NCBI GenBank assembly: GCA_947561715.1
Contig: OX387202.1
Coordinates: forward strand, 13,281,001-13,345,000
Reading direction: 5' to 3'
DNA: 64,000 nt
Origin: Ascidia mentula
Taxonomy: Eukaryota > Chordata > Ascidiacea > Phlebobranchia > Ascidiidae
The position numbers were made by a program, and so were the translations under genes. This document shows positions 11,576 to 60,295 of the stretch, piece by piece; the stretch's first letter is position 1; each line of letters opens with the position of its first letter. The notes below the pieces were generated by a model. The model worked only from the letters and a program-made list of their open reading frames with translations, was not told the origin of the DNA and made no database searches.

Positions 11576-14500
11576 ATGACTTTAAAGAAGCAGTTTCGCA
11601 AATTAAGACGAGGTATTATTCAGAAGGTAATGGCATTTAAGCAGTATTTCTCATGTTGCCGTGGAACTTCAAAGGTAAGAAGTGAGATAAATAACGGGAA
11701 GACACGGAAAGGAAAAATATGCACGCATTTAGTACACAAAGGGTAACTTCACAAGAAGAGGCAAATATCTTGTCAAATGTTTGCAAATGCACTGCAAAGA
11801 TAGTGATTGTTAAGGTCTAATACGTATACAACGTGGTATCATAAAAAGACATTTAACACAGAAAATATTTAAAGTTGCTCCATGGTAGACAGATGTTACA
11901 AAATGTAACCAAAAAGAACTCACAGGGGTGGGAGCAGTGATGACACACACAAATTGTAATAGCACCAAATTCAAAATTCAGGTCACAATGTTGCAAATCT
12001 TGCTTGACACCATCAATATAACATCTGATAAAAGTTTTGGTCCTAGAAGTAAAAGACATGTATTGAACAATATCTTAATCACAAAACAGTAGGCTTTTTT
12101 TAAATTTAGTTGCCAACGCTAAAAAGCAAAAGAAAATTTAAATGCAACAAGAACAGATGGTACAAAAAAAAACAATTATAAAATTGTCAGTTTCAAATTA
12201 AAAACAAGTTCGACTTACAAACTAATAGTTTATTACAATACAATTGTTGCTGTGTAGGATTGGCTACAAGATGAGATAGAAGATGGGCAACAGAACTATT
12301 TGATTGCAGAAAGATCTACAAACATTGTAAGTTAATACACTAATATAGATTAAGCATAAAAACATGAATTTTACCAAAACATAGAAATGGTGCAGTGCAT
12401 GGATAAACAACAGAGTACATGGTAAATATGCCATGCCAATTGTTGGAAAAGGGCATACGTAAAACATTAAGTTGTGTTGAATATCACTTACTTCGTAACT
12501 AATGTCTGCATATCCTCTTCGTTGCACCCAGTCACAGTTTTGTGAACCTTTCAAAGTGCTTCCTAATGTGTAAAAATGATGTTTAAAAGCTTGGTATTTA
12601 CTAGAATAAGGTCTGACACACAACAGGATAGTAAAAAATTTTGGCATGCATCGTCATTTGAGTTAGCACATTACTTTACAAGCCTTGTTTAATGGCATAA
12701 AAAACTTTATGACATAGAGCTGCGCTTTTATGGTAATGGCACTATTGAAAAGATTTTTTTATTTTATTAAATTAAAATATACAAAAAAGGTCGTAACGCT
12801 CATATAAATATTATCCCATAATTCAAGGAACTGGGCAAAACAAACCGCAACACCGAAAAAAAAGTTTAGTCAAAAATATTTTTTAAATAAAATCATGTTT
12901 TCTCCGTAAGGTTGCCCCTAGTTTGGTGCCCAACGGATGGCGGTGATTGTATAGTCACCACAAAGTGGAAGTCTTTGCTTGGCCGTTTGGTCAGCAAAGT
13001 CGTCTGAAAGTCACACCAACTGCACTGATGAGACCTTTTAGGTCCTTACTATAAACCCTTAAGTTTTTCTCTTTGGTAGCAGAATTATCTTGATAGAAAT
13101 GCAAGATATAAATTTGCAGTCATTTGCTTAAAACTGTTTCTGCTAGTAGAAAAGCAGTTCTGAATCTTGATTTTTGGAGTACAATGGTTGAGTGCAAGAA
13201 TGTGGCCATGGTTTTATAAGTTTCGTCAATTTCTATGTTGGTCAAACAATGTTTATTTTTTTAAAGAATCTAAAACTATGCTAAAGTTTAACTTATATTA
13301 ACTTATTGCTTTAGAAACTGACTCATTTAAAACAAACATACACACTAATTACTAAAAAACAGTCTCAAAGCAACTTATTTTTAGTCAAGATTCGTTTGTT
13401 TAAAAACAAATTTGCAGAATCTGCAAAAGGCTTAAATTTTTTTCCCCATGCAATTCATCTTAAAAAGAAGTAGCACATTGCAGTAGTTTGTGCAGTGTAT
13501 TAATAAACTTTGGTCTGTGAAAAAACATAACTTAAAAAGTTGCTTATGTTAATGTATGTTTGTCTGAGTTTTAACAAAAAATGCAAACCTAACCATATTG
13601 TAATGAAACAATTTGACTGTATCTGTGCACTTAATGAGTATTAGGCTATATTTCACATGCTGTTAGGATTGTTTTTCACCTTTGCCACTTGGCTTTAAAC
13701 TAAATATTCATTGCTGTTTCAGTAGAATTATAAATCTTATAGCCATTGGATTCGCAGGCACAATATACCCCGTGAAGCCACTGAGCTCCTGTAGCTCAGT
13801 TGGTAGAGCGTTGGGCCTGGTTAGCCTAGGGTCATGAGTTCAAACCTCACCGGGAGCTTGATTTTTCAGATCTTGCTCTGACTTGTCACCCTACAAACAT
13901 ATTTTAGGCAAAATCAGTTGGTAAAAGTACATGACTGGACCATAGGCGTCGATTGTTTCAGTTTCCAGGTTAGGCCAAGTTAAAAGCGGCCTATAAATTC
14001 TCCGACGTATTCCTATAGGACTTATCTTGCGAGTGCAGAGTCAAATTACAGGCATAGTGCTTTTTGGTGTATACTGAATCGTGCAAAGTTGGTTTGGCAA
14101 AAAAAACCATCAGATTGTCTAAAAACCAACTTCTTTTTTGGGTTTTAAGGTTTTCTTGTTTGTTGTTGTTATTTTCCAAGTGTATTGCCAATCTTGTACT
14201 GGGCATGGGCAAAACGATAATACTTCAATGAACAGAATTAACTCCCCAAGGATATTTTTTCAGCGACCATGATAAGACTTATATACATCACAAAAATAGT
14301 CCATCTCCATAACAGTTTTATTGTACCGTCACTGAACGATCATAGGACGTTGTTGATTCTGTGTTATTTCAAGGCTAGTTTGTAAGATTGTGTGATTATC
14401 TTTCATAGTAACGAAATTTATCCGTTAAGTCCACATGTTGTTGTTGGTATAGCAGAATGTTTTTCTTTAGCGGAAAGTTTTGATTTTGGTACATTACTTG

Positions 14501-16752
14501 AATGAATAAACCGTTCCAAACCATGATAATTAAACAATCGCAGGACACACAGTGAAAACAAAGTGAGAATTCACTTAGTCGCGGAAACCCACAATTGTTT
14601 TGTTGTGCGTACTTCACAATTACAGTATCCACTGTTTGTTGAGCCCCCACAGTTTAATGTGTATTGTTCAAAGTGACTGGGCCCAAGTAATATACAAAAG
14701 GTTTGTAGGCATGCGGTAATATAAATATCGCAAAGAAGGTATCTATGCAAAGCAAATTACCAGAAGCACAAACATAAATTTATGTGGTAAGCCTGCATTC
14801 TGCCTATCATAAGGTTGTCTTGTTCGGCAATCACAAACTCAGTATTACTCAGTACATATCAGTGATCTATCCATGTTTGTTACATTTATGGTCAGAAACC
14901 TTACGATAGAATAAGCAAAGATTTAACAGTTTGCCGGTAAATGCGACTACAAGTGCTCGTAAATTCAATTAATTTACAATGGTAAGTGTGACGGCTAATG
15001 GTCATAATATTGAATGAGTAATTTCAGGCTGTAGTTGTTTTACACACGTGAATGCCACATTGGAAAAAATGTCATGAAAATTTCCTGATAATATTTACTG
15101 ACACGCAAAACAAATTAACCAAACATGAACATATAAAAAACGCTTAAGCTTTAACAACTTTCTACTACCACACATTAACCTTGGGAAAAATACTAATTGT
15201 GTTCAATGTTACACATTGTTATGAGAAAATAGCAGAAAAACGGCAAAAGAAACCTCCATCTATACAAACTAATTTGTTTGCGATTTACATAGAAAATGTT
15301 TCATCTTACTTACATTTTGATTGTGCCTTACGCGAGACATCTCACATTAAGTTCTTGCTTTTCCTGTTAATGGTCACGTCACACTTCTTTTTATTGCTTA
15401 AACTTTCTGACAGACAAACACGAACCAGCAAGTAAACGGTTGGCTGAACACAACGGATGATTCGTGCGCTTTTTCGACTTGTAGCGTTTGCCAACTGATA
15501 GATCACTGCCTTCAATACAAAAACATAAACGAATGTCTAACACATATTGGTTTTCTATTCAGTATAACCACGAAACACTAAAAATTTTTCACCAGTAGGG
15601 TTCAAAATCGCATAAAATGTACACTATACTGACTGCAGTCGATAGTTTCTATGATTGAACAATAACATAATTTTCGGAAAATATTAACACCGGGTCACAT
15701 AAATAGGAGAATACTTGATCCACATATACGCCTAGTATTTAAATTCAAATATATAACCAAAAATAACAGGTGCATGGTTACTTTGTTAACACGTGACCGT
15801 TAACATTCGCACAGATTTCTATTTTGCACAGGCTTAAATGTGGATCAAGTATGCCGACTAATCTGTGTCGCAGTGTAATAGTATTTTCCCTAATTATCTT
15901 CTGTTGGTTCTAGAAACATTTAAAGTAACCTGTGCCAGATCGGCCATTTTCCTACCAAATTCTTAAATTTGACCAAATTCAAAACGGCTTGGCCAGCAAT
16001 TGTGCATTTGGCTGTAATTTCGACCTCTTTTTCCGAATATTGTGCTTAAATATAGATTTGATATCAATTTTTGTAAAATCACCTGGCAATAAAGTAACTT
16101 CTTGTATTCTTTCAATCCTGTTGACTGTTCTGTTCACTTTTTATCACTATGTATCTGTAGGTGCAACAAGAGGTAGCTCAGCGATTGTGGTACATGATAA
16201 ATGGGAACTTAGTTCAACGTTTGAAGCAGGTAGTTCGGGCAGGTGCAACTCCAATTCCTGGTAAGTTAAAAATTGTGATGCAAATAGCTTAATCTAAAGT
16301 GAGGATGACCCGACAGAGAAATTACAAACATAGCCTACAGTCCTGTCTTTACCAAACATAACAATAAGAAAAGTTTTGAAAAATGTAAAGAAAAAAATGA
16401 TTTTATTGGCTTCTATCATAGACGAACCGCTGTGTTACCATCTTATGGGTTTGGTGCCTGTTTTTATTGTGAAATTAATCTTTCCTGTTTGGTTTTCGGT
16501 ACCTTGGTAAAATTAGGTTTTTAACTGCTACTATAGTCATGTCAAAAAAGTGTTTAACAGAAGTTGGGCATGAGACGATTTGTCTGATAAATTAATTTAG
16601 CCACAACATATTAAAAGCAATTGTTGGAAAAAATAGACTTGTACACTTGTATTTGTATTACAGAGGACTTGCTTCGTGTCTTTGAATCACCACAGATATT
16701 GCAGTCTGTGGTTATGGCTCCCACCTCGGATGTTCTTTTGGATGAAATATAA
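11576..16752 (+). CDS. Small-protein family, member 1 (118 residues, four exons)
   Basis: Exons: 11576-11674, 12258-12326, 16161-16260, 16664-16752. All junctions are GT-AG, phases agree (0, 0, 1) and the frame ends at TAA 16750-16752. Exon 1 (33 residues) is basic and amphipathic, starting MTLKKQFRKLRR, and ends in a Cys-Cys cluster (YFSCCRGTSK) that could be palmitoylated. Exon 2 (23 residues) is acidic (DWLQDEIEDGQQ). Exon 3 carries RLWYMINGNL. Exon 4 ends APTSDVLLDEI. There is no signal peptide, so it is probably cytoplasmic or membrane-associated. Member 2 at 23839 has the same exon sizes throughout, which is the main support. I recognise no known domain and give no function. Intron 2 (3.8 kb) could hide a further exon. 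Confidence 0.65.
12690..13770. repeat. Single-copy ancestor of the tandem-array unit (member 1, intron 2)
   Basis: This intronic stretch matches, in pieces, the units of the array at 24771-34480: 12710-13190 matches the second part of each unit and 13200-13760 the first. At 13184-13191 it holds GTTGAGTG, the uninterrupted target of the 752-bp transposon found in the array. A broken hammerhead-like motif (CTGATGA with a GACC/GGTC stem but no GAAA) is at 13025. Confidence 0.7.
13766..13890 (+). mobile_element. tRNA-derived SINE, truncated
   Basis: From 13784 the sequence has an A box (TAGCTCAGTTGGTAGAGC) and a B box (GAGTTCAAACC) inside a tRNA-like head closed by a 7-bp stem, GCTCCTG with CGGGAGC. 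A TTGATTTTTC tail start follows. It is interrupted after about 100 bp. The T stem has a mismatch, so I call it a SINE head and not a functional tRNA. Other copies are at 20060, 22090, 47150 and 53290. Confidence 0.75.
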
Positions 16753-17055
16753 AGGATATGCAGCATTGTCCACAACTCCTTGCCGTCCTTGCTGCCTTTG
16801 TGTGATTCTTTTTTTCTTGCAAATCATGGTTAAAAGCTACATTTTACCAAGTTCACACACGCTATTGTTTTTATCTATAATGTCAAAAATGAGTAATTCG
16901 TTAGATAGTAGTTTTATACTGCTATTTTTTGCTGCCAGGCATACTTATTAATCAGAATTGTTCTTCTGGCACTCAAGTTTCTAGTGTTTATTTGTTTGGC
17001 GTCTTGAAGTTGCTTAGGTTCATATAAAATGTTAGCCTATTTGAAACAATCATCC

Positions 17056-17888
17056 CAGGGCGTCGATTTTTTTCTGCGTGTCGAACATCTTGAGTAAAAT
17101 TGTCGAGCGTGTCGAATAGTAAAATGTCCTAACTGGTAACTAACGCATGAGAACGACCAGGATCACAGGATTCTTGTACTTGCGTAAGTTTGGAATGCAT
17201 GTTAAAATAACGTCAAAACAATAAAAAACCTTGCATGTTGTAGGCTGCTATGTCTCTTTTTAGGTCCGACTTCGATTGAACGAAAATTGGTACTTGTTTG
17301 GTAACAATGCTTCGTGTTCGGTAACAATGCTCCATGTTTGAAAACAATGGTTAGTTTTAGGTTTAACGTGCTTATTCACTGAACGTTTTCGCTGGTTTTT
17401 GCATGGATTTTGTCCAAAAATTCATTGCGATTGCGTTTATTTAGCAATCTATACAGACCAATTTTTAGGTGGGGATCCCAAACGATGATGTCATTAGGTT
17501 TTAAACACTACGTAACCGTCAATTAAATACTGTTGTTCGATTTGAAAAAACAAAATTTCTTCCCAAAAAGTTGTTTCGTTTTGAAATTAACGACTTATGC
17601 TGGCACCAACGTCCTCGAACCACTTTTGCCACCAGGAGGAAAATCGTTGCCGTCCTATCTTCGAAAAAAGAAAACTAGTGAGATCGATGTGAAGGTTGCA
17701 AGATAGGCGATACATTAGGCTAAATTCAGTAATTATAGTAATTCAATTTATGGACTTTTGGTAGATAACAATAGCGTTGATCTGTTCGAGGTACTGTATA
17801 CCGGTCACTTAAAATTTATTCCGTGTCGAACAGTGGCGTCGCGTGTCGAACACCTAGAATGGCGAAAAAGGCATAAATCGACACTCTG
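17056..17888 (+). mobile_element. 833-bp non-autonomous DNA transposon
   Basis: The ends are inverted repeats, CAGGGCGTCGATTT and CAGAGTGTCGATTT (reverse complement). GTGTCGAACA phrases recur near both ends. The paralogous block at 45735 runs straight through, which marks the empty site. A second copy lies inverted at 43290-44172. No transposase is seen. Confidence 0.7.
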
Positions 17889-18546
17889 ATCACAACGAAA
17901 ATTTTGGGCTCTTTCATTTGGCGACCTCCCAATAAACAAATATATTTGATTTGCGACTCCTCTTGTTTGTCGTGCAGAGAAATATAGTAGAAGTAACGCC
18001 TTACTCTATATACATAGTGAAGCAGAACACGCACACAATGTTGGACCTCATACGGCTCAAACAGTGTTGAAACAAAAACCGTGTTACAGCCACACAGTTG
18101 CAAGTTTACACTTTCCATAAATTCTTTCTTCAGGGGTAGCCCGAGTAAAAGATTACGGTTGTTCGATTCGCAGCTAAAAGCTAAATAGTGGCAATTATAA
18201 TGCAAACCTTGAAGAACATTTATCTTGGGCGAAACGTTCCGTCTTCCATATCACGTATAGTCAGCACATGCTATTAGACAAACCAAAAACCCGCAGGTTA
18301 CCCAGACGACTTTATGACGTATAAGTTCAGGAGTAAAGAGGCGAAGGGTGAACATCGTTTTGGTATCTTCTTTGTATAAAAAGATAATCAATTTAAAATT
18401 TGGACTTCGAAAAATTGATTTTCGGTGTATGCTATTCAAGTTACGTGTCATTTCAGGCCAATTATTGTCAAAATTTGCCTTATTAAGGCCAACAACAGTT
18501 TTTATGAAAAAAAATTGCGCAAAATCAAATGATTATAAAAAAATCA

Positions 18547-18955: not shown

Positions 18956-18959
18956 ATGC

Positions 18960-20030: not shown

Positions 20031-20059
20031 TTGTATCAAACAACCAAAATCAAACGCTT

Positions 20060-23838: not shown

Positions 23839-26800
23839 ATGTCTTTGAAGATACTCTTTAGCACATTAAAAAGATACATGATTCAGATTGCAATGGCAAT
23901 TATGAAGTATATGCCATGTTGTTGTAAAAGTTCACAGGTAAGAGTATCAAATAAAAAACATTGCACTTGTGCATTTAAATAGCCATAAAGTAGTAAAAGT
24001 TGTTTAAAAAGCACCTTCACACGCAGAAAGAGGCAAAACCAATATAATTTGAAAAAGTTGTATATATATATGTTACTTAACAATTGTTTTTAAAATTACT
24101 GCAAATGGTAGTGTTTAGTAAGGTCCTATGCAAAATATATAATTTGGTATCAGAAGGTATTTTACACTTAAAAAAGATCAATGCAGCTCTGATACTAACA
24201 TATAGGCAGATATTCAATTAACTAGCCAAGAAAACTCACAACATTAAGAGCAGTTATGGTGTGCACACACAAAATTTCTGACTGCAGAAAATTTACTTTC
24301 ACAATGTTGTACCTCTTGAATTCCAACTCAATACAAGTTGTGATAAAAGTTGTAAGTTTCAAATTAAAGCACATAGACTCAAGACTTTACTAGCAGATAC
24401 TGTATTACAATTGTTGTTGTTTAGGAGTCAGCGAAAGGTGTGAAAGAAGATGGGGAATTGATTGAAGTGATTGTGGAGGGTCCTGGAAACACTGTGAGTA
24501 CAAAACTAAATAGATTAAACATCAACTTTAAATTTCACTAAAACATGAAAATAATATTGTGTCTGTGCATGGGTACACAACCAAGAGCATGAATGACAAA
24601 TTTGGCACATTGTGTGTTGAAAACATTGCATGCTTAAAACAGTCCACTAAGTTCAATCTCTTATTTCATAACACATCCTGTGCTCAATACTGGTTTTATG
24701 TGGGGGTCATCAAGCAGTAAATGTAGCATTGTATTTTTTACATTTTTTTAAATTATGCTTTTTTTTTTAATGCAAGGATTTTTTTCTAAGAATCTAATAC
24801 AAGGCTAAACTGAACTTATATTATCTCATTGCTTTACAAACTGGTACATCTAAACAAACACATATATACACTAATTATTAAAAAACAATCTCAAAGCAAC
24901 TTATTATTAGCCCGACAAATTCTGGTGGTCAACCCCCAACATAGTGCACTTAAACTCATGTAACTTACAACATATCCAAAATGGCTTAGAATTCCAGTGA
25001 CATGCTTTTGTTGTGGTCAGTCTCAGGTCTTAGTTGGTAATTTGTGATCTGTAAAAAGAAAAATATTTCTGTACTCCAGAATGACAAAAATACCTATAAT
25101 TTAGTGACGGATCTAGAAAAAATGTTAGGCGGGTGTCCGGTTTGGGAATGCTTATTATTAACGCTGTTATTTGCAGCTACATTTTTTTTTATGTATTTAC
25201 CATGCAATCCAGCTTAAAAAGAAATAGCACATTGCAGTAGTTTGTGCAATACATCAATCAACTTCGGTCTGTAAAAACTAATAACTTTAAAGTTGCTTAT
25301 GTTAATGTGTGTTTGTCTAAGTTTTAACAAAAATGCAAACCGTACCCTATTGTAATGAAACAATTTGACTGTATCTGTACACCTAATGAGAATTAGGCTA
25401 TATTTCACATGCTGTTGGGATTGTTTTTCATCTTTGCCACTCGGCCTTGAACTAAATATTCATCGTTGTTTCAGCGGAATTATAACTTTTATAGCCATTG
25501 GCATAGAGTTTTGCATATCAACCAGGTTGAGCGAGTACAAAATGCTAACTTCAGAAGCTCCTTTGCACGCTATATCATAAAGGTTATAGTATCTTTCATG
25601 TTAACAAGTGTTTAAGCCAGCGATGTAAATAATCGCCGATCGGAAAAATCTAACAAACGTGGTTTCAAATAAATGCCTTTGCGACGAACTCGGCAGTCAA
25701 TTACACAGATGCTAATTTAATTCATGTGAAGCACCTGTATGAGTGTAATTTGAGGTATGTGCCTTCATTTTTACTGTGGTTTAAACCGAACAGAGCCGAA
25801 AAGACTCGATGCGAATGTGTTGCAAAATTTAGAAAAAAAGCCGGGGGTACTCTGCACCCCTGCACTCTCTCCCAGTGCTTATAGCAGCTGTAGCATAAAT
25901 GAACAACAGTCTATAAGTCAGTGGTTTTCAAATTCTTGTTGCTGACGGGTTATTGACCGTTATAACAAATAATTGTTTAAAATGCAGTCATCGCCATGTG
26001 AATGTAGTGAACCTGCAAAGCATCTGATTCGAATACTTCACCTGCAGGACTCGTTCCTGTTTAAGCTGTATCAGTTTTGTGACACAGAGATGTACTTTTA
26101 CGATAATGGCACTATTGTAAAGACTGATTTTTTATTTTATTAAACTAAAATACACAAAAAAGGTCATAACGCTCATATAAATATTATCCTATGCTTACAG
26201 TTTGTTTCCAAAATGGTGACTGTGCGTATTTTATCGAAAAGAAAATGTCATATTTATTCGATTGTATGCAGTGACTCATGAACTTTATAAACCTACTGTT
26301 TAAGTGGATTAATTTTTTACTTGTACAGCTCTATGTTTTAATGACATTCATGTTAAACTCGCTCTTCCGTGCCAATATGTTTTATCACACACAGTTATCA
26401 TCATATCTGACAATTTTAAATGATAGTTTTGTTGTTTGGCACCTAACTTTGCCTTGGGCATTTATTTGGGCTTACAATGGAGGGCGGTCTACAATCAAGT
26501 GAATATAGTGGTAACCATCTGTGGTCTGTAACAGAATATTGGCCAAGCAGAAATGTTGTTTGAAACAAAATACGTTTTTTCCAAAAAAAACTGCTATTTG
26601 GTATTAATCTAAACAAGTGGTTACATAAAACAAGAAGTATTGAATGACTTACCACTACATGGTCGCTTCTAAGCTCCTTTTGTACTGCGTAAAAGAAGGT
26701 GTATAGCATTGAAAATTCATGCTATGTTGAAATGAAAGTCTGGAAGTAAGATATAAATTTGCAGTTATTTGCTCCAAAACTGCTAGTTTCTGTTAGTAGA

Positions 26801-29800
26801 ACAGCAGTTCTGAACCTTGATTTTTAGAGTACAATGGTTGAGTGCATAGGCGCCGAACACGGGTATGCCGCGCATACCTAGACGAAAATGTCGGGTATGT
26901 CGCATACCCGAGTATCTGACCAACGTTCCTCATGCATTTTTAGATTTAGGCGGTTATCACTTTCCCAAAGCAACGAGTTTCTGGACAGCAGGTAATGCAA
27001 CGTATGCTGCAATAGGTAGCGTTTAGTTTAGGCAGTGTGTTCCTAGGTGAACCTCAGTTTAGAGTTTAGAGTCCCTGGCCTTTAAAAGGCATGATCGTTG
27101 CAGTAACAACGAGATGTTTATTGCTTGCTTCGCCAAATACAATACCACAAGGCCCAATTTGCCGCCATACCACACGTTACTTGGTGGCACTGCCTATAGC
27201 GTAATGTTTACCACTTTGTATGCAATAATAAGCATTATGCTCGAAGTAAGTCCTCACGCTCAACATAGGCAGTAAACACAGTTTGCAACAGCGGTTTTAA
27301 TGGGTCTTGGACAGAACCTTGTTCAAACTGACAAATATCGCTGTTGTATTGGAGTTTCTCTTTGTCATTTGAAAAAGGCCCTTTGTTTAATATTCAATGC
27401 GGCGTTGCCGCACATAAACATGCGTTCATTTGGAAAAGGGCTTTGCGTTGCGTGAAGTTCGTAAACTACAAGCCTTAACATAGTATCACGTCCCACCCTA
27501 TCTAACGCCAAGAAAGATATTTTGCATTTTATGACGTCATAACATGACGTCATATAATTTGGTGAACCCGAAAAATTTTTAAAGTTGGCGCCTATGGTTG
27601 AGTGCAAGGATTTTTTTCTAAGAATCTAATATAAGGCTAAACTGAACTTATATTATGTCATTGCTTTACAAACTGGTACATCTAAACAAACACATATATA
27701 CACTAATTATTAAAAAACAATCTCAAAGCAACTTATTATTAGCCCGACAAATTCTGGTGGTCAACCCCCAACATAGTGCACTTAAACTCATATAACTTAC
27801 AACATATCCAAAATGGCTTAGAATTCCAGTGACATGCTTTTGTTGTGGTCAGTCACAGGTCTTAGTTGATAATTTGTGATCTGTAAAAAGAAAAATATTT
27901 CTGTACTCCAGAATGACAAAAATACCTATAATTTAGTGACGGATCTAGAAAAAATGTTAGGCGGGTGTCCGGTTTGGGAATGCTTATTATTAATGAGGTT
28001 ATTTGCAGCTACATTTTTTTTTATATTTACCATGCAATCCAGCTTAAAAAGAAATAGCACATTGCAGTAGTTTGTGCAATATATCAATCAACTTTGGTCT
28101 GTAAAAACTAATAACTTTAAGTTGCTTATGTTAATACGTGTTTGTCTAAGTTTTAACAAAAAATGCAAACCGTACCCTATTGTAATGAAACAATTTGACT
28201 GTATCTGTACACCTAATGAGAATTAGGCTATATTTCACATGCTGTTGGGATTGTTTTTCATCTTTGCCACTCGGCCTTGAACTAAATATTCATCTTTGTT
28301 TCAGCGGAATTATAACTTTTATAGCCATTATTGTAAAGACTGATTTTTTATTTTATCAAACTAAAATACACAAAAAAGGTCATAACGCTCATATAAATAT
28401 TATCCTATGCTTACAGTTTGTTTCCAAAATGGTGACGGTGCGTATTTTATTGAAAAGAAAATGTCATATTTATTCGATTGTATGCAGTGACTCATGAACT
28501 TTATAAACCTACTGTTTAAGTGGATTAATTTTTTTACTTGTACAGCTCTATGTTTTAATGACATTCATGTTAAACTCGCTCTTCCGTGCCAATATGTTTT
28601 ATCACACACAGTTATCATCATATCTGACAATTTTAAATGATAGTTTTGTTGTTTGGCACCTAACTTTGCCTTGGGCATTTATTTGGGCTTACAATGGAGG
28701 GCGGTCTACAATCAAGTGAATATAGTGGTAACCATCTGTGGTCTGTAACAGAATATTGGCCAAGCAGAAATGTTGTTTGAAACAAAATATGTTTTTTCCC
28801 AAAAAAACTGCTATTTGGTATTAATCTAAACAAGTGGTTACATAAAACAATAAGTATTGAATGACTTACCACTACATGGTCGCTTCTGAGCTCCTTTTGT
28901 ACTGCGTAAAAGAAGGTGTATAGCATTGAAAAATCATGCTATGTTGAAATGAGTCTGGAAGTAAGATATAAATTTGCAGTTATTTGCTCCAAAACTGCTA
29001 GTTTCTGTTAGTAGAACAGCAGTTCTGAACCTTGATTTTTAGAGTAGAATGGTTGAGTGCATAGGCGCCGAACACGGGTATGCCATGCATACCTAGACGA
29101 AAATGTCGGGTATGCCGCATACCCGAGTATCTGACCAACGTTCGTCATGCATTTTTAGATTTAGGCGGTTATCACTTTCCCAAAGCAACGAGTTTCTGGA
29201 CAGCAGGTAATGCAACGTATGCTGCAATAGGTAGCGTTTAGTTTAAGCAGTGAGTTCCTAGGTGAACCTCAGTTTAGAGTTTAGAGTCCCTGGCCTTTAA
29301 AAGGCATGATCGTTGCAGTAACAACGAGATGTTTATTGCTTGCTTCGCCAAATATAATACCACGAGGCCCAATTTGCCGCCATACCACAGGTTACTTGGT
29401 GGCACTGCCTATAGCGTAATGTTTACCACTTTGTATGCAATAATAAGCATTATGCTCGAAGTAAGTCCTCACGCTCAACATAGGCAGTAAACACAGTTTG
29501 CAACAGCGGTTTTAATGGGTCTTGGACAGAACCTTGTTCAAACTGACAAATATCGCTGTTGTATTGGAGTTTCTCTTTGTCATTTGAAAAAGGCCCTTTG
29601 TTTAATATTCAATGCGGCGTTACCGCACATAAACATGCGTTCATTTGGAAAAGGGCTTTGCGTTGCGTGAAGTTCGTAAACTACAAGCCTTAACATAGTA
29701 TCACGTCCCACCCTATCTAACACCAAGAAAGATATTTTGCATTTTATGACGTCATAACATGACGTCGTATAATTTGGTGAACCCGAAAAATTTTTAAAGT

Positions 29801-41800: not shown

Positions 41801-44800
41801 AGGCAGAGAACTTTTCCATATTCACTTTGCAATCAGTCATTTCACCAAAGTCCTATAGAATTTGAAAGATTTTTGAGAAATCAGTATCCAAACCTTTTGT
41901 AAAAACAATAGTATCGTCTGCAAATAGGGTTGATTTTTATTCTTACAGACCATGAACAAAGTTAAGCAGAGTGGGTCACCTTGTCTGACGCCACGTACTA
42001 TGTCAAACGATTCCAAGAAATATGGTGTCGAAAATTTACATGTATGTGGAAACATGCCAATGGTCCCTAATGTCAAACAGCAACCGGATATTTGACCCTA
42101 TATATCGGTGCGGTTGGAAGCCGTGTCGCTCCTTTGATAGAAACCACGTATCTTGCGTTGACGACTTTTGAGGAAATCTTTTTTTCATTGCTAAAACTTT
42201 CTGACAGACAGTAAACACGAACCAGCAAAGAAAACGAACAAACAAGTAAACGGTTGGATGAACACAACGGATGATCCGTGCGCTTTTTCGACTTATGGCG
42301 TTTGCCAACTGATACATCACTGCCTTCATTACAAAAAATATTAACGAATGCCCAACACATATTGGTTTTCTAAACGAAACACTAAAAAATTTCACCAGTA
42401 GGTGTTCAAAATCGCATAAAATGTACACTATACTGACAGCAGTCGATAGTTTCTCTAAATGAACATTAACCTAATTTTCGGAAAATATTAACACCGGGTC
42501 ACAGAAATGGGCGAATACTTGATCCACATATACGCCTCGTATTTAAATTCAAATATATAACCAAAAATAACAGCTAGGTGTATGGTTACTTTGTTCACAC
42601 GTTTTGCACAGGCTTAAAGTGCATATGACACGGCCATGACAACTTTGCGTAAAACTAAAGGTACATCTACAAAAAACATATATCCAAAGTTTTACGGCTC
42701 GTAGAAAACTGCAGAAAAAGTAACGGCGACCAAAAATCGTAAACCTTTTGCGCTGAGGAGAAAAGGACATCACATAAGGCGCATGCGTGGAAAAAATGCA
42801 TTGTTTAGATAGGAGAAGGCGCCTGTTTTTGCAGATATCGAATAGTTTCAAACAGAGGAGAATCCACAGATTACTTTACCTTAAAGGTCAGGACAGGGTT
42901 TTGCATCACACAAAAATTTGTCATTGTGACGTCACGAATCAAAGGCTTATTTGTCCCTAATTAACGGAAGACCATAGGGTATAACAGAACCGACATAATT
43001 GTGAGTGGACAAAACGACAATGCTAAACTAACGGTTTGTCTCTGTCGTGTTTCCAAGAGTCCATGTATCACGTTAGCGATCATAAATGCTGTAACAACAA
43101 GAACACCCTGTCCCAGTAACTGTTTTATTATTACACAACTAAATAAGACATAATAGGTCGGCGGCCATCTGTCTTCAGCTTAAATTAACATCAAAATCCG
43201 TTTATTGCACTTGTTCACTTTTTGTCCCCTGTTTAATGCAATATTATGCTTAAACCAGTTTTACAATGTTTTCCATTCCTACGCAAAGGCAGGGTGTCGA
43301 TTTATGCCGACACGCGACGCCACTGTTCTACACGGACGACGTGAATAAATGTTAAGTTACCGGTATACAGTACCACGAACAGACAAACGCTGTTGTTATC
43401 TACAAATGTCCATAAATTGAATTACTATAATAACTTAATTAAACCTAACAAATCGGTCACGCCAGTCTTGCAACATTCACATCGATCTTACTAGTTTTCT
43501 TTTTTCGAAGATTCGACGCCAACGATTTTCCTATTTAACATGTAGTTATCAATTTTTTGCCGTAGATTTTGCCTGGTGGCATAAGTGGCTCGAAGACGTT
43601 GTTGCCAGTATAAGTCGTTTAATTTCAAACCGCAGACAATTATTTGGGAAGAAATTTGTATTTCGAGTCACTATCAAACAACAGCATTTAACTAAACGGT
43701 TACGTAGTGTTGAAAACTTAATGGCATCATCGTTTGGGATCCCCACCCAAAATAAATTGGTCTGTTTAGATGGCTAAATAAACGCAACCGCAATAAATTT
43801 TCGGACAAAATCCATGCAAAAACCTGTCAGCACTTACTTTAACGTTCAGCGAATAAGCACATTATACCCAAAACTAACCGATGTTTCCAAATATAAGGCA
43901 TTATTACAGAATACGTGGCATTGTTACCAACCATGTTGCATTGTTATGAAACAAGTGCCATTCTTCGTTCAATCGGACCTTAAAAGAGACATAGCAACAT
44001 GCAGGGTTTTTAATTGGTTTGTCGTTATTTTAACGTGATGTGAGTACAAAAATCCTGTAATCGAAATAAGTCTGGCCGTTCGCATGCGTTAGTTACCAGA
44101 TACAACATTTTTGCTATCCCACACGCACGACAAATTTTCTCAAGATGTTCGACACGCAATAAAAAAATCGATGCAAGTAAAAAATTATTCGCGCACGACC
44201 GAAGCGCCTTCTATGACGTCACGCAACAATATCTCGCTTTCCTACGATTTCGTTCTCATTGGCAAAAGTGCGACTTTGATCAGCTGTATCTCAGAAACCA
44301 GTCGACGTATCAAGCTACTTTTTTCGCCAAAAATGTTCTAAAGTTATGAACATCTCTTAGTTTAATTATTAACATGTTTGATTTTTACGTGTCATATGCA
44401 CTTTAAATGTGGATCAAGTATGCCGACAAATCTGTGTCGCAGTGTATTAGTATTTTCCCTAATTATCTTCTGCTGGTTCTAGAAACATTTAAAGTAACCT
44501 GTGCCAGCCATTTTCCTACCAAATTCCTTAAATTTGACCAAATTCAAAACGGCTTGGCCAGCAATTGTGCATTTGGCTGTAATTTTTTCGACCTGTTTTG
44601 TTCCGAATATTGTGCTTAAATATAGATTTTATATCAACTTATGTAAAATCACATGGCAATAAAGTAACTTCTTGTGTTCTTTCAATCCTGTTGACTGTTC
44701 TGTTCACGCCTTTTTATCACTATGTATCTGTAGGTGCAACAAGAGGAAGCTCGGCGATTGTGGTACATGATAAATGGGAACTTAGTTCAATGTTTGAAGC

Positions 44801-45346
44801 AGGAAGTTTGGGCAGGTGCAACTCCAATTGATGGTAAGTTCAAAATTTTGATGCAAATAGCCTATAATATAAAGTGAGGATGGCCCGACAGAGAAATTAC
44901 AAACATACAGCCCTGTCTTTACCAAACATAACAATAAAAAAAGTTTTGAACAATGTTGTGTTCACCATCATGGGCTGTGGTAAAGAAAAAACATGATTTT
45001 ATTGGCTTCTATCCTAGACAAACCGCTGTGTTACCATCTTATGGGTTTGGTGCCTGTTTTTGGTGTGAAATTAATCTTTCCTGTTTTATTTTCTGTACCT
45101 CGGTAAAATTAGGCTTTTAACTGCTACTAGTCATGTCGAAAAAGTGTTTAACAGAAGTTGGGCATGAGACGATTTGTCTGATAAATTAATTTAGCCACAA
45201 CATATTAAAAGCAATTGTTGGAAAAAAGGGACTTGTACACTTGTATTTGTATTGCAGAGGACTTGCTTCGTGTCTTTGAGCCACCACAGATATTGCAGCC
45301 TGTGGTTACGGCTCCCACCTCGGATGTTCTTTTGGATGAAATATAA
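23839..45346 (+). CDS. Small-protein family, member 2 (118 residues, four exons)
   Basis: Exons: 23839-23937, 24425-24493, 44734-44833, 45258-45346, with GT-AG junctions, agreeing phases and TAA at 45344-45346. Exon sizes (99, 69, 100, 89 bp) equal those of member 1. Exon 1 starts MSLKILFSTLKRYM and ends with a Cys triplet (YMPCCCKSSQ). Exon 2 is acidic (GVKEDGELIEVIVEG). Exon 3 carries RLWYMINGNLVQCLKQE. Exon 4 ends APTSDVLLDEI. Exons 1-2 differ strongly from member 1, whereas exons 3-4 are nearly the same. The 5' leader (AAAGAAAAGCAAAGC) also resembles that of member 1. Intron 2 is 20 kb because of a tandem array and transposons. Whether transcripts really cross it is untested; two half genes are possible. 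No known domain. Confidence 0.55.
26845..27596. mobile_element. 752-bp non-autonomous DNA transposon (array unit 1)
   Basis: Ends are CATAGGCGCCGAAC and, inverted, CATAGGCGCCAAC. An exact 8-bp duplication GTTGAGTG flanks it (26837-26844, 27597-27604). The empty site is at 13184 in member 1. A short inner palindrome, ATGACGTCATAACATGACGT, is present. No transposase. The 8-bp duplication suggests the hAT group. Confidence 0.88.
29060..29811. mobile_element. 752-bp transposon, copy in array unit 3 boundary
   Basis: Same element with the same GTTGAGTG flanks (29052-29059, 29812-29819). It was copied by tandem duplication of the unit, not by a new insertion, because the flanks are identical. Confidence 0.88.
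31892..32642. mobile_element. 751-bp transposon, third array copy
   Basis: Same element and same flanking 8-bp repeat (31884-31891, 32643-32650), with a few substitutions. Confidence 0.88.
33041..33571. mobile_element. 530-bp insertion with long inverted repeats in array unit 4
   Basis: The other units read straight from TTATTATTAATG to CTGTTATTTGC; unit 4 is interrupted here. Inside, 33136-33176 and 33521-33562 are inverted copies of about 40 bp (GGCTCAGATTGAAGTCAGCA within them). The left border TTATTATTAATG and right border TTATTATGAATG look like a degenerate target duplication. Confidence 0.7.
34480..35030. other. hAT end followed by DNA paralogous to 13970-14380
   Basis: 34490-34570 resembles the right end of the hAT-type element at 56299 (GTGTTCTGACACC). 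From 34605 the sequence matches the member 1 block (CCAGGTTAGGCCAAGTTAAA). No gene. Confidence 0.55.
35031..35866 (-). mobile_element. Composite insertion with a hammerhead-like core and a hAT terminus
   Basis: The member 1 block lacks this segment (compare 14380-14450). Minus strand 35078-35055 reads CTGATGA, a 5-bp stem GACCT/AGGTC, then GAAA: the hammerhead ribozyme core order. The right end, CTAGATCTGCCACTG, is an inverted hAT-type terminus. 35350-35560 resembles 55840-55990 in inverse orientation. Confidence 0.5.
36000..37370. other. Paralogue of 14490-15260, no gene
   Basis: Intron DNA of member 2 that aligns in pieces with member 1 intron DNA. Open frames here are short and unshared. 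Confidence 0.55.
37381..38972 (-). mobile_element. 1.6-kb DNA transposon with 8-bp target duplication and decayed transposase-like frames
   Basis: Ends are CCAGATTGGAAA on both sides (inverted), with a subterminal TGCGCGGAGGAT also inverted. CATCTATA flanks it (37373-37380, 38973-38980), and the single CATCTATA empty site is at 15258 in member 1. Minus-strand frames at 38409-38167 and 38167-37952, joined by a frameshift, include GTEAVVESFYE and NRTIVDWSMPHAIQCDEAL, a block I associate with transposon-derived proteins of cnidarians and other invertebrates. That association is from memory and unverified. It is broken by stops. Confidence 0.8.
37655..37745 (+). other. tRNA-like sequence inside the transposon
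   Basis: TGGCGTAGTTGCCACGGGTGG resembles an A box and GGTTGCGAGTTGGAATCCC a B box, followed by a T run. No good acceptor stem can be drawn, so it is at most a tRNA relic. Confidence 0.25.
39147..40049. mobile_element. 0.9-kb element with minisatellite core and 9-bp target duplication
   Basis: Inverted ends of about 65 bp: TTGACTAAAATCCTGACTGC left and TTGACTAATATCCTGACTGC right (inverted), followed by CTGACT-rich sequence and GTGTTTCC. CACGAACCA flanks it at 39138-39146 and 40050-40058; the empty site is at 15420. No transposase. Confidence 0.82.
39465..39955. repeat. Minisatellite of GAAAGTCAGGCAATTCCAA units (about 30 and 21 bp)
   Basis: Long (30 bp) and short (21 bp) versions of one unit alternate. 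Both lengths are multiples of three, so three long stop-free frames (176, 180 and 168 codons, on both strands) arise from repetition alone. They are not genes. Confidence 0.93.
40072..42190. mobile_element. Rearranged relative of the foldback element with LINE fragments in both orientations
   Basis: Begins with the foldback terminus CACCCTCATTCTGGCAGA, has one complete and one partial 205-bp unit, then plus-strand LINE sequence (PQNYRPIPLLN near 40680). After unrelated DNA, 42185-41340 carries the same LINE inverted. There is no matching right terminus. CACGAACCAGCAAAGAAAAC occurs at both sides (40050-40069, 42216-42235), a duplication of host DNA around the insertion. Confidence 0.75.
41340..42185 (-). 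pseudogene. L1/Tx1-type LINE reverse-transcriptase fragment, inverted
   Basis: Minus strand reads FDIVRGVRQGDPLCLTLFMV, then (after a frameshift) FADDTIVFTKGLD with the catalytic F/Y-ADD box, then a DCKVNMEKFSA block (the SGLKVNxxKS region) and a WATRGITLIGKIT block. The order agrees with L1-class RT motifs 4, 5, 6 and thumb. Several frameshifts and stops. It is better kept than the copy at 5490. Confidence 0.82.
42190..43285. other. Paralogue of 15390-15830, then unmatched DNA
   Basis: 42190-42610 aligns with the member 1 block; 42620-43285 does not, and belongs to sequence inserted before 44400. No gene is supported. A fragment at 43155-43180 matches the flank of the hammerhead-like core at 35050. 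Confidence 0.5.
43290..44172 (-). mobile_element. Second copy of the 833-bp transposon, inverted
   Basis: Reverse complement of 17056-17888 with frequent substitutions; the terminus CAGGGTGTCGATTTATGCC is at 43290. Same family, older divergence. Confidence 0.65.
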
Positions 45347-48137: not shown

Positions 48138-48697
48138 GTGGACAACGAAACTCCATCACCTGGACGCGAATATGAGGTTTATTCCAGTGCTGTTCCATTT
48201 ATTGGTATGTTTATATTAGTCTGTCTGCATTATTTTAGTTTTTCAGATTTTTTCTTTGTTTCCCTTATACAGTAGAGGCTTACATGATATACATGTATTT
48301 TTATGGCATATATTTGGCCTATGATTGCACTGCTCATACAACGAAGCCACATTCCGACCGACTAAACAAATTCAAAATAAAATATTTATGCAAACTGAAC
48401 TGCCACAAAAATGAACAGAAAACAAAAGTATCGGGCATTTTTGGGCTACATGTGTTTTTTTGGTTTCCTATAATTTCAGCCCTGAAAGCTGTATTAGTTT
48501 TCGTTTTCAGGCAACCCCCACCTTCTTCCGGACGCTCATTATCAGATATACAAATGCATGCGCACCCATAAAACTAGATAGTTTTGCGAGTCAAAGAGTA
48601 GGTTTTATTTGAAAGTAAGGAGAAATGTTTTTGTTGCGTAGATGACTTTCCGCGGTCACCGATAGAGCATCCAACCTCGGATGTTCTGTTGGATTAA
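48138..48697 (+). CDS. Third family member: two terminal exons only
   Basis: Exons 48138-48204 (acceptor AATGACAG, donor GTATGT) and 48642-48697 (acceptor TTGCGTAG, stop TAA 48695-48697) join in phase 1. They encode VDNETPSPGREYEVYSSAVP, then DDFPRSPIEHPTSDVLLD. The tail PTSDVLLD is that of members 1 and 2, at the same intron phase, but the W-Y-M-x-x-G-N-L block is missing and the EI end is lost. AATAAA lies at 48818-48823. I could not find its first exons. It may be a separate gene, a relic, or alternative 3' exons of member 2. Confidence 0.45.
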
Positions 48698-49959: not shown

Positions 49960-50075
49960 TTTTTACCACACCGGGATTTGAACCCAGGATATTCTGGCAA
50001 CGAATCCCGATCGGGTTTTCACGCCTCTGCAATTATCAAATCTAATTATACATGGGTCTGGCGCTTGACCAAGAA
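49960..50075 (-). mobile_element. tRNA-like SINE head, second type
   Basis: Same layout as 46730-46830: TTGGTCAAGCGCCAGAC and a B box ATCCTGGGTTCAAATCCCGG on the minus strand. Confidence 0.5.
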
Positions 50076-50079
50076 ATTG

Positions 50080-52400: not shown

Positions 52401-52407
52401 CACAACC

Positions 52408-55400
52408 ATGTCATTGAAGGAAGAACTTGTCAAGTTTGGCGTTAACGTTAAACGTAGTGCCACTAATCTTATGAAGGTGATCCAACTGAAAAAAAAAAGA
52501 AAATAAAACTAAAAGTTCACACGGCTTACAATTGACATTTAAATGCAGGGCCTGGATTGCTGCCAGATATTTGGGAGAAAAAATAAAAGGGACATTGAAG
52601 AAAATTATGAGGTATGCAAATCTATACTTTTGCCACAGATTTTGCACTCAATACATGCTGTTCTGAATAATTTGCAGAAAATTTTTAGTGCATAATCTGT
52701 GTTTTTCTTTTTCTTGTGAACTTTATATGTGAATAGGTTACTTACATGATGTGTAAAAATAATAATGTGTGTGTTTTCTTCTTCTCTGGAGATTTGTCTG
52801 TCCTCATTTCCTAGAACATTACTTCTTGATTCCTCCAAAAATATGCAATAATAGTTGCTCCATTACATGTAGAAACTATGTGGGAAAACACTTCTATTAA
52901 TTTTTAGGATAAAAACAGACATTTAAGTCAACTTTGCACATGCTAATTAGGGAGGACCGGGGATAGCTCAACGGTTTTTGAAAATTGCTCATATATTTTT
53001 AAAATTATGTAGGACATTCCTTAATTTAATTTCGTTGCGAGTAGTAAAGCATTCCCAAAAACAGAAAGTTTTTTGTTCGTTTTAGCTCACTTAATATTCC
53101 CAGTTAGTTCGTTTTTAAAACAGGTCTCAAATGTACTAACATCGGACATGATTGGGAATAGTTCGAAAAGTAAATTTCAACAGACATTTGTTTGCTTGTT
53201 AAAACAATTACTCCAATTTGATTAACTGTGACTGATATAGAACCTCACACATATACAAATTGAAAAACTTGGTTTCACTGAAGTGTAACTTGGCCACTAT
53301 ATACCCTGTGAAACTGTTGAGATCCTGTAGCTCAGTTGGTAGAACGTTCAGTCCGGTCAGCCCAGGGTCATGAGTTCAAACCTCACCGGGAGTTTGATTT
53401 TTCCGATCTTTCTCTGACTTGTCAGGATTTGTGGCTGATCCAGCTTGGCTGCGTAGCCTGTAAAGATCGAAATATGGAGCTGAGATCACCAATATAAAGG
53501 GCCTACGCAGTGGGGCGACCCTGTCTGATATGCGAAAGCATGATAATGCTTCTGCATGTGCAAATAAGAAAGTTTTTAGCCTGTAATTTTATAAACTTCA
53601 CATATAGAGGACCACTTCCCAATAGCTGTGCATAAAAATGTATTGTAATTATTCCCAAACAATTATGACTTACCATTTCAGAACTATCTGCAGCCCAATG
53701 AAAACACAGGTTTTATAGCAGATGAAGGTAATGGACATTCAGTAATTCATCAGGTAAGTTTTTTAACACCCTAAAATTACATGATCAACTTTCAATTTGC
53801 TTATTTAAATTACCAATCATATGTGAATTTGCAATAACACACTCACCAGTCTAAACTACAATGCTGATGCAAGGATTTTCCTTGGAAGGATGGGAATAAT
53901 GGACTTTTATCATAATTATTTTTCTGGGTTATCGCTTTGTTGTCAGTGTGAAGTGTTACATGGTACACATAAAACTGTAAAAAAATTATAATTTAATTCA
54001 TTACCACATTATAAATTCTAATTTATTTTTTAGTTAAAGTAAGACCATAAAACTGACAAAACAAAAACGATTTTTGACGCTCCTCACTAAAATGGTTAAA
54101 TAGTGTTGGACAATGCAAACAGGAGTAATTCAGAATTGATAAATTTGACCCATCTTGCAAAATGTTAATAGTTACAAACAAAACATGTGTCCTATTGTGT
54201 ATAATGCACATGTAAATCATGGTTAGCAAACTGCTTGGTTTTGGAACTAATGCGGCAGAGCGCTTCGATGATAGTAGACAAATCCTGCAGAAATGGACAA
54301 TAAAAATTACTCTTGAAAGGAAATAATTGGTACCAACACCATCTTGGTCGAATTAAGTTAAATGGTGGAATGGCTTTCAGCACAATCACACATCAGATGG
54401 GTAAAGTGGGCCAGTATATTTCCTAACAATGACAAATTGCTGGAAAAAAACTTTTCAGACTATCAACCGAACAACTTCTTGAGAAAACCAAAGTGTATGT
54501 CTAAACTGTTACGATAAAAGTCAGAAACTTAGGGGGAAAGTTTGGGAAGGTTTTGCTAAACACAATTATCAATAAACTAACGCCAGAGCTTAAAAAAGTA
54601 GGGGACAGCCGTACATAATCAGGAGAAAGATGGTTAATGGAATGTTTTGTCCCGAGAAGGTCATCACCACATACAAGTAGCACTACTATGCCCTTGGTTG
54701 CAAATACTGCAGTACATCAGATTCCGGTTCAAATGGTAACTTGTCAAAACGGAAATCTTTTGACGATTTATAGATGACATAATCTTGTCGTACAAGGATA
54801 GATCAATCAGAAAACACCCTAAAACATTTTCAACAATCACAGACTGCACTTAATTTTTAGAAGAATAAACATGACACAAGCATGCAGTGCACTTGAATCT
54901 TTGGACATTTGCCATCTCAAAAAAGATTCGTGGTTGGGTTTGAAAGCCAATGACTTCGTCAAGATGAAAAGTGTGGGGCATACATTTATCTATGGAACGT
55001 CACACCATTCTCAACACATCTTTAGAGCAATTGTATATAGAGAGTCTATAAGAAAATGCCGCCTAAACGTGGAGCAAGAAGACTACATAGCAAACCTCAA
55101 TTGTCTTCAGAAAAGTACACCATTTCAGAATTCCCAAAGCGCATCACAAAAAGGCTCACCGCAGTTGCTAGTAATTGAAAGACAAATTTTTAAAAGTTTG
55201 CGTCCAAGCACCAGTGCATATATTGGGGGTACATTCTTCCCATGCTATATGTCTCTTTAAATCAAAGACAGAAAACTGGAAAAAAACAGGACATTGCATA
55301 GCTGGCCAACTTTCTTCAGAGCAACTGTTCGAGGCCACATGGAAGCTGTGGCCTATGTGGACAATTCAAGGGTCCTAAAAGCATGGTGGATGAGTTTCAC

Positions 55401-58400: not shown

Positions 58401-60295
58401 TGCCTAGACTCGATGCGTACAATGCCTACGATTCGTACAATGCCTACTATGCCTTCGATGCCAACAATGTCTAGACTCAATGCCTACGATGCCTACAATG
58501 GCATTTTAGAGGCACCCTTGATTTCCCAGAAATATCCACTGGCACTGTATATGCACTGCTCCTCACACAGTCTAAATCCTGCTTTGGGTCTGTGTACAGT
58601 GCGGGACAGACACCATGCATTAAAGATAATGTCAGTCAATTTTATAAAGGCTTACTTCCAAATGTCAGTTAATTTTGGAATCAGCAATTCGACAAGAGTT
58701 TGCTAATGACCCAACCATGAAGTCTGTACTAAAAAACAAAACCATGTGCAAAAGACATTGGTGCAAAAAGTTTCTGAAATTTCCCCAATAATTCCCTGAT
58801 TTATAAGAATAACATGTTTATTGCTATTTCATGAAAAACCAATGGTTTGTCCCCACAACAAATATTAACATCACATGGCCTAGAAAAAATCTTTGACACC
58901 CTATCAAATCACCAACCAAAACCTAGTCTCTAAAAACACAACTAATTCAACAGACAACTAAAATGTCAAACAAAACGACATTTTAAAAAGCAAAATAATT
59001 TAAACTTACAAAAAGCAAAACAATTGAAAAAACAACTCACCGACTTCATAAACTCGACGATGCGAAAAAGAAAAGATTAGTTTCCTACATATACATAATA
59101 CGATACGGGATACAGACAGACAAGGAACCCTAATTTTATCCACTAAGTGGCGCTACTTTGTTTCCTACATCTTTTTTTATTTTTTTTTTATATTTTTTTT
59201 CCTGAACAAGCACGGCACAAACATACACCACTAAAGACGATATTAATGAAATACAGGCAGAATAAATTACTCCTTTGAAACCTAAATTGGTTAAATATAA
59301 GAAACAATTTTCTATTTTTGAATTTGCCTAATTTCACTCGCCATAGAATACTGTTTATATTTTCTATGTAAAAATCCCTCTAAATTCCCTTTGGAAAATA
59401 CTAATACACCATAACACAGCCAGATGGCAAACCCTGATCCGCATATGAGTCTAAGTATTGCACAAATTCAAGCGAATATATAATAAATACAGTTTGGGTG
59501 CACCAGGGTATGCAAATTTAAATGTTACCCCATTTTTTCATTTTCTACATACACCGCAGTGTAGACTCTGAACTCCCGGCCTGCGAGGGCCAAGTCTCAT
59601 AAAGGGTAGCCAGCTGTTTTGAATCACGCCGTTTCCTTTTCCCAGTGTATTAACATCACTGTAACGACGGTTTTCTATAAAAAATCCACGATCAACAACA
59701 CAGCCGACAATAAACGCTAGCAAGCACTTACCAACTGTTTTTTAACAGTCCACGTTTACTTATGACAGCTTAATTTGCAGCAAACAAATGAACAATAACA
59801 TTTAAGTCAAAATTATCTCCTGAAAGGGGTAAATAAACAATTTAACAGACACAAACTATTTTACCCTACCAGCACGCTGCAAACAAGTGAACTAATCACC
59901 ACCATACAACAATGGCATTCGAAAAGAAGTGTTACGCATTAAGATCATTGTTACGCCACTGTCAATTACACATAATGAACGTGGGGGGGTTACACGCAGC
60001 ATCCCCCATGTTTCACAAAACCAAACTGCACATCAGATGAGAAAACTTGCTGTTCCTTTGAATATCAATTTTAGATACGGTCACATTCCATAAACCCTGG
60101 AAAGCATCTTGAGGCACTCTTCATAATTTATATTGTTTTCTCCTTAAAATTGTATTTTACAATGATGTTACCTAATGGCCGATTTATGAGGTTATATTTT
60201 GTTGCAGGATAGCAACTGGCGTTGGTTTATGGTGGGTGGAAACCTGGCATATGGTTTTATGCAGGAGATATACGGAGATGCAGAACCGATAGATG
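52408..60295 (+). CDS. Small-protein family, member 3 (divergent, last exon outside window)
   Basis: Exons: 52408-52476, 52549-52611, 53682-53753, 60208-60295, all GT-AG, phases 0, 0, 0, 1. Exon 1 begins MSLKEELVKFGVNVKR. Exon 2 supplies the Cys-Cys cluster (GLDCCQIFGRKNKRD). Thus one exon of members 1 and 2 is split in two here. Exon 3 is acidic (NENTGFIADEGNGHSV). Exon 4 has WRWFMVGGNLAYGFMQE, aligning with the RLWYMINGNL exon and ending in the same phase. The acceptor CTGGCCCACAG at 60845-60855 probably belonged to the last exon but is cut at the tandem-duplication junction; the intact one should lie past the edge. Intron 3 (6.5 kb) holds a hAT pseudogene. No known domain. Confidence 0.5.
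53290..53560 (+). mobile_element. Most complete SINE copy, tRNA-derived
   Basis: Head: CCTGTAGCTCAGTTGGTAGA (A box) and GTTCAAACCTCACCGGGAG (B box). Then TTGATTTTTC, a GTGGCTGATCCAGCTTGGCT body and a tail ending near TGCGAAAGCATG. Lies in intron 2 of member 3. Confidence 0.78.
54600..54850 (-). pseudogene. Possible BEL/Pao retrotransposon gag fragment
   Basis: Minus strand ends a 61-codon frame with CSICNQGHSSATC, a C-x2-C-x3-H-x4-C knuckle of the kind found in BEL/Pao elements. The reading continues with stops. Only one short motif supports this. Confidence 0.3.
54871..55260 (+). other. 129-codon open frame, unassigned
   Basis: A stop-free frame in intron 3 of member 3 that I do not recognise. 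A second frame (55175-55378) overlaps it, and no splice sites or homologous copy in the window support it. Probably decayed mobile-element sequence. Confidence 0.2.
56299..57674. mobile_element. 1.4-kb hAT-type non-autonomous element
   Basis: Termini AGTGGCGGATCTAG and, inverted, AGTGGCGGATCTAG. Flanks TGTGGCGC (56291-56298) and TGTAGCGC (57675-57682) form an 8-bp target duplication with one change. Internal sequence is related to the hAT-derived part of the array units at 25104, so several divergent copies exist here. Confidence 0.82.
58005..58500. repeat. Degenerate minisatellite (TGCCTACAATGCCTAGACTCAA units)
   Basis: Shuffled 10-12 bp modules (CTCAATGCCTA, ACAATGCCTA, ACACCTACAATA) repeat over about 500 bp, splitting the transposase pseudogene between the GVQA and HCSSHSLN blocks. 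Confidence 0.88.
58711..60200. other. Intron DNA without a gene
   Basis: AT-rich; includes a T-rich run at 59170-59210. No exon supported before 60208. Confidence 0.45.

Follow-up and report, generated by a model that had tools for sequence, protein, structure and literature searches.

What is encoded by a run of short plus-strand exons in the genome of the ascidian Ascidia mentula, and do they belong together as a family of genes? The exons lie on contig OX387202.1 (C70) within positions 13281001-13345000, a stretch of 64,000 nucleotides (nt) that is referred to here as the window, and a preliminary description had reported them as two genes plus fragments. The DNA examined comprised the window and 80 kb on either side, with genome-wide searches conducted in the 196-Mb genome; coordinates are on the window scale, where values above 64000 lie beyond the window. 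The cluster of Cys-Cys loci with matching exons was confirmed. It was found to extend to what looks like a real family of four full genes (A, B, C, and E) and one remnant (D), the members of which are known here from DNA sequence alone. The tandem arrangement of small Cys-Cys proteins on one strand was thus supported, while the interpretation originally attached to it was upheld in part.

Genes A and B are each divided into four exons, and gene A encodes 118 residues with all introns GT-AG:

11576..11674, plus strand: gene A exon 1, with the start codon, predicted basic helix, and Cys27-Cys28, MTLKKQFRKLRRGIIQKVMAFKQYFSCCRGTSK
12258..12326, plus strand: gene A exon 2, encoding an acidic stretch that contains NYL
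16161..16260, plus strand: gene A exon 3, with WYMINGNL
16664..16752, plus strand: gene A exon 4, with the tail PTSDVLLDEI and the stop
23839..23937, plus strand: gene B exon 1, with the start codon and CCC
24425..24493, plus strand: gene B exon 2
44734..44833, plus strand: gene B exon 3, apparently a recent copy of gene A exon 3
45258..45346, plus strand: gene B exon 4, with the stop, apparently a recent copy of gene A exon 4

As first reported, exon lengths are 99/69/100/89 nt in both genes and the phases are identical. The use of these lengths as evidence of paralogy holds for the first two exons and fails for the last two. A block spanning exons 3-4 is ~95% identical between A and B, or 90% over a 1120-column gapped alignment that includes the intron and flanks, with mismatches (gaps aside) at 7/100 positions in exon 3, 4/89 in exon 4, 20/396 in intron 3, 9/322 upstream, and 8/155 in the 3' flank. 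Judged from the alignments, exons 3-4 are recent copies and exons 1-2 older ones; equal lengths in exons 3-4 therefore provide no independent evidence. Exons 1-2, aligned without gaps, differ at 29/99 and 27/69 positions (56/168), and because their lengths are equal even though intron 1, while alignable, is interrupted by 30 gap events, the equality is informative there.

Two elements that had been listed as a third tail and a split-exon relative are both related to these genes; the tail belongs to the truncated locus D, and the relative is a five-exon gene, C. Gene E lies beyond the window:

52408..52476, plus strand: gene C exon 1, MSLKEELVKFGVNVKRSATNLMK
52549..52611, plus strand: gene C exon 2, with Cys27-Cys28, GLDCCQIFGRKNKRDIEENYE
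53682..53753, plus strand: gene C exon 3, NYLQPNENTG...
60208..60295, plus strand: gene C exon 4, 88 nt, first of three identical copies
64940 and 69673 (starts, outside the window): further copies of gene C exon 4, at a spacing of 4732-4733
70387-70472, plus strand, outside the window: gene C tail exon (fifth)
48138..48204, plus strand: remnant D, exon resembling gene E exon 4, VDNETPSPGREYEVYSSAVPFI
48642..48697, plus strand: remnant D, tail exon with PTSDVLLD and stop and, compared with E, an in-frame gap of 15 nt
72482-72538 and 72611-72685, outside the window: gene E 5' exons
86389-86463, 86633-86699, and 87055-87131, outside the window: gene E 3' exons

The model of gene C uses the third copy of exon 4, which is nearest the tail; the protein is identical with any copy. 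D is, on its alignment, a truncated copy of the 3' part of gene E. The two differ at 4/67 positions without gaps in the exon, at 38/342 positions with 18 gap events in the intron, and at 7/64 positions with the single 15-nt in-frame gap in the tail. A search for 5' exons of D found none, and inspection of the alignment by eye indicated that the donor of the preceding exon is lost. The 5' exons of E were located through a weak match to gene C exon 2 (E value of 0.65) followed by reading of the DNA. Under a strict donor/acceptor rule, this pair is the only combination of a start exon and a Cys-Cys exon within 300 nt on both strands of 224 kb, a count that excludes the exon pair of C, which does not satisfy the rule. 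Gene E encodes 116 residues beginning MGLIKA, with CCC at residues 23-25. Across the models of A, B, C, and E, introns and phases are consistent.

Repeats are frequent in and around these genes. A perfect 53-bp inverted repeat with an 11-nt loop (11417-11533) ends 42 bp 5' of the gene A ATG and could form a hairpin in a 5' untranslated region or promoter; a genome search with it reported only its own two arms. Repeats at spacings of ~2.2 and 2.8 kb, mostly 96-100% identical, extend from 24598 to 34160 and occupy much of the proposed intron 2 of gene B. A 30-bp minisatellite at 39457-39952 leaves several frames open across the two strands, and its long repetitive open reading frames (ORFs) are probably not genes. 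A tandem triplication of ~4732 bp from 60208 to 69760 includes minisatellite blocks and gene C exon 4, as well as a repeated ORF with, by eye, the look of a transposase. Its first two copies are identical over at least 3.7 kb, so that it either arose very recently or reflects the assembly.

The proteins predicted from A, B, C, and E are 116-125 residues long, and all begin with M-x-L and close with a PTSD tail; between these lie Cys-Cys(-Cys), placed within residues 23-29, and then an acidic middle. M1, L3, Cys27-Cys28, and P109-T-S-D112 (gene A numbering) are invariant in the four-protein alignment; the cysteine pair is numbered identically in three proteins (A, B, and C), and the tail reads PTSD-x-LLDE in A, B, and E. 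The 5' halves and the 3' halves are each related in 6/6 gene pairs, so that homologous, phase-matched exons with intact frames recur at several loci, as in a paralogous gene family. Of the shared plan first proposed, the Cys-Cys, acidic, and PTSD elements stood, whereas the W-[YF]-M-x-x-G-N-L core of exon 3 is absent from E and the LLDE end is absent from C. Residues 1-33 carry charges of +10 (A), +5 (B), and +3 (C), and the remainder −7, −10, and −9, respectively. Mean hydrophobicity of residues 1-26, calculated for these three proteins as mean values only, is −0.22 in A and −0.05 in C (polar, charged) and 0.26 in B (borderline). Because an in-frame stop lies 15-30 nt 5' of the ATG in all four genes, it is unlikely that the family represents just the 3' portion of a longer protein; the stretch between stop and ATG has no AG in C and contains AG dinucleotides in A, B, and E. 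Structure prediction with AlphaFold2 covered exons 1 and 3 of gene A singly. Exon 1 (two-row alignment) was modeled as one helix over residues 3-25, ending immediately before Cys27-Cys28 (mean predicted local distance difference test [pLDDT] of 80, predicted template modeling score of 0.36), and exon 3 was likewise predicted to be helical (pLDDT of 81).

The claim that the family carries no known domain was borne out within the sensitivity of the searches. No Pfam family scored over its curated cut-off; weak matches to the Rubicon homology domain (E value of 0.048) and LINC-PINT (0.12) fell under theirs. One of the four members matched the NCBIfam bacterial hydroxylase model PRK07608 (E value of 0.0068), which was taken as chance, and gene E reached an E value of only 0.49 against a replication-associated protein in PDB. 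A profile built from A, B, C, and E (the last minus its first two exons) had no match to PDB chains at an E value of ≤10. Likewise, 4 candidates for the gene A query and 226 for the four-row profile were retrieved from a protein database that includes Phallusia, Clavelina, Ciona, and Styela proteins, and none reached an E value of ≤10; full-length E was outside this search, and since the prefilter requires exact shared 5-residue words, fast-evolving orthologues could be missed. Within the genome, the exact tail pattern occurs in this cluster only. With up to two mismatches it occurs at 11 places, 4 of them in the cluster, and as a reversed control pattern occurs at 7, the remaining 7 are at chance level; the 2 of these that were inspected had no second family exon nearby. 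When the genome was queried with the proteins of A, C, and E (E both partial and full), the matches outside the cluster had E values of just 2.04 (twice) and 3.46, and since the A query missed the C, D, and E exons of its own cluster, distant members elsewhere could escape detection. With the 5' region of A as a DNA query, B alone was recovered, apart from the query itself and one arm of the upstream hairpin. The titles and abstract openings surveyed in the literature described no such family, and the tail strings gave no paper. The family thus appears undescribed and without known relatives in the searches made, the sensitivity of which is limited.

Codon usage and substitution patterns were then compared. 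Against 1500 random sets free of stops, codon-usage scores ranked above 96.5% (A), 99.5% (B), 98.5% (C), and 99.8% (E, exons 3-5) of the sets. For A and B, rates of nonsynonymous (dN) and synonymous (dS) substitution in exons 1-2 were 0.44 and 0.43 by the Nei-Gojobori method (NG86; dN/dS of 1.05) and 0.40 and 0.24 by the Li-Wu-Luo method (LWL85); in exons 3-4 they were 0.073 and 0.024 (NG86) and 0.066 and 0.038 (LWL85). By codon position, the differences are distributed 20/20/16 in exons 1-2 and 5/5/1 in exons 3-4. Neutral decay was simulated with the substitutions observed between A and B in exons 1-2. At half the intron gap rate, a fraction of 0.00075 of 20000 runs remained without indel or stop and 0.0003 also kept the ATG; at the full rate, none of 20000 runs kept frame and ATG without a stop.

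We propose, with about an even chance of being right, that these loci form a tandem family, restricted to its lineage and evolving rapidly, of small membrane-tethered ascidian proteins that present their tail to a partner. Each gene would produce a cytosolic protein of 116-125 residues, the N-terminal ~25 residues of which would form a basic helix. This helix, together with S-acylation (palmitoylation) of Cys-Cys(-Cys), would tether the protein at the inner face of the membrane, and E may also be N-myristoylated at Gly2. The basic helix and cysteine pair, with Gly2 in E, suggest the anatomy of an S-acylated peripheral protein of the inner leaflet. The middle, which is acidic and variable, could act as a linker or as a docking site. 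Binding of a common partner would fall to the conserved PTSD tail (extended to PTSD-x-LLDE in A, B, and E); this tail, kept while most else changed, would be the natural site. A more specific proposal, which we consider distinctly improbable, is that the proteins are ascidian-specific inner-leaflet adaptors under diversifying selection, with 5' exons diversifying and 3' tails homogenised by duplication or gene conversion, in immune or self/non-self signalling.

Several observations weigh against the membrane-tethered family. Protein change between A and B is not visibly restrained, and a dN/dS of ~1 fits relaxed constraint equally with diversification; in exons 3-4, 10/11 differences fall at codon positions 1-2, too few for a test. 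Simulated without indels, neutral decay leaves a stop-free fraction of 0.046. The simulation figures tilt toward the coding case, since gap counts vary with the alignment penalties used and it was its open frame that brought B to notice. Free alignment of exon 2 of A and B inserts two offsetting gaps (23/68 mismatches), the lengths nonetheless being equal. The ~20-kb intron 2 of B and the ~14-kb intron of E are rich in repeats, so that 5' and 3' exons of these genes are paired by order and phase. The tail is not constant, as C lacks the LLDE end. Amphipathicity exceeds that of shuffled sequences in C (0.016) and B (0.042) and is not significant in A (0.19). Gly2 is present in E alone and absent from A, B, and C, and the start MGLIKA of E fits a myristoylation pattern.

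The preliminary description had also placed the cluster next to an IRF gene and regarded it as a candidate system:

2080..2610, minus strand: IRF DNA-binding-domain exons, a neighbour outside the family

These exons lie ~9 kb from gene A on the opposite strand, past two oppositely oriented 205-bp satellite arrays. Of 18 IRF-domain matches at several places in the genome, the family was found beside this one only. When the 300, 600, and 1000 bp upstream of the four ATGs were scanned with the consensus of the interferon-stimulated response element (ISRE), no excess over background was seen. The best sites within 600 bp had 2, 1, 2, and 2 mismatches (A, B, C, and E), and 31% of background windows reach ≤1; B alone had 2-3 one-mismatch sites within 300-600 bp. 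With no enrichment upstream, a functional tie to the IRF gene is not supported. That the cluster constitutes a system is not shown either.

The satellite arrays extend over 3117-5470 and 6586-8468, with most units 97-99% alike, and a related copy (62%) lies at 40331-40630. Downstream of the cluster (C70, ~13409600-13417000) are four tandem ceramide synthase (LAG1-like) ORFs of ~365-410 residues, apparently intronless, one of which was identified by search (Phallusia mammillata, 58%; Clavelina and Ciona, 54%; one further entry, 65%).

The main rival, which we judge unlikely, is that A, B, C, D, and E are decaying relics of a once-functional family, now neutral and largely unexpressed. Between A and B the exons do change at about the rate of the introns and flanks (11/189 in exons 3-4 and 20/396 in intron 3, with the dN/dS of 1.05 in exons 1-2), D has by eye lost the donor of the preceding exon and has no 5' exons that were found, exon 4 of C is triplicated, and much of the B intron is taken up by repeats. 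Decay would nevertheless have had to leave four frames intact with their splice sites, along with coding-like codon usage, and at the gap rate seen in the intron such keeping of frame is improbable; decay also sits poorly with exon mismatches between D and E that are fewer than those in the intron (4/67 versus 38/342, no significance test) and with a D tail gap of 15 nt that is in frame. That the loci are instead chance open frames with splice-like ends, and no gene family, is highly improbable. The exons are short, they come to us from genomic DNA only, and exons 1-2 of E were first picked up at an E value of 0.65, yet ordered, phase-matched paralogy at four loci and the confinement of the exact tail pattern to the cluster argue otherwise.

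Two further readings concern what the proteins might be. As a special case of the membrane-tethered family, they could be cytosolic adaptors of immune or allorecognition type, under diversifying selection and controlled by or partnered with IRF; we hold this to be doubtful. Tandem clustering, fast protein change, near-identical 3' ends of A and B beside diverged 5' ends, an IRF gene ~9 kb away, and possible Tyr motifs seen by eye (YENY in C; YEPL and YEVY in E) would be in keeping with it, whereas ISREs are not enriched upstream of the ATGs, dN/dS is not demonstrably above 1, and the IRF gene is on the opposite strand beyond the satellite arrays. The other reading takes exons 3-4 as a relic armadillo repeat, importin-alpha-like, based on a phmmer match to the designed repeat protein 4rzp (E value of 1.8e-9; 2.5e-10 with exons 3-4 alone). 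That score sums five near-identical repeats, and single repeats give E values of 11-150; moreover, there was no Pfam Arm match and none with the family profile, and the pattern of the region is not kept in the paralogue E. An armadillo-repeat origin was rejected for its repeat-inflated score and the lack of a significant single-repeat match, and we consider it extremely improbable.

The proposed membrane-tethered family can be compared with known proteins. LAMTOR1/p18 and SH4-type anchors are likewise short cytosolic proteins with an N-terminal Cys pair, Gly2 (in E only), and an acidic body; the present family differs in having no Pfam or solved-structure match, in lacking Gly2 in 3/4 members, in a putative anchor whose cysteines follow a basic stretch of ~25 residues, and in a PTSD tail of its own. 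LAT, PAG1, NTAL, and LIME1 combine an S-acylation Cys pair beside a membrane segment with an acidic, tyrosine-containing tail, whereas A and C have no clear transmembrane segment by mean hydrophobicity and the family proteins are much shorter, with fewer tyrosine motifs. Lineage-restricted, fast-evolving tandem orphan families, as a general class, resemble the cluster in their clustered paralogues, low amino acid identity, dN/dS of ~1, partial and truncated copies, and absence of detected outside homologues; the Cys-Cys family itself did not turn up among the titles and abstract openings.

If expressed, these genes would constitute a new protein family outside the searched profile libraries, found from exon anatomy. 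The cluster of four genes, with its ongoing duplication, loss of exons, and shared 3' ends, may offer a compact test bed for the origin and divergence of orphan membrane proteins in ascidians, in which immune and allorecognition genes are difficult to find by homology.

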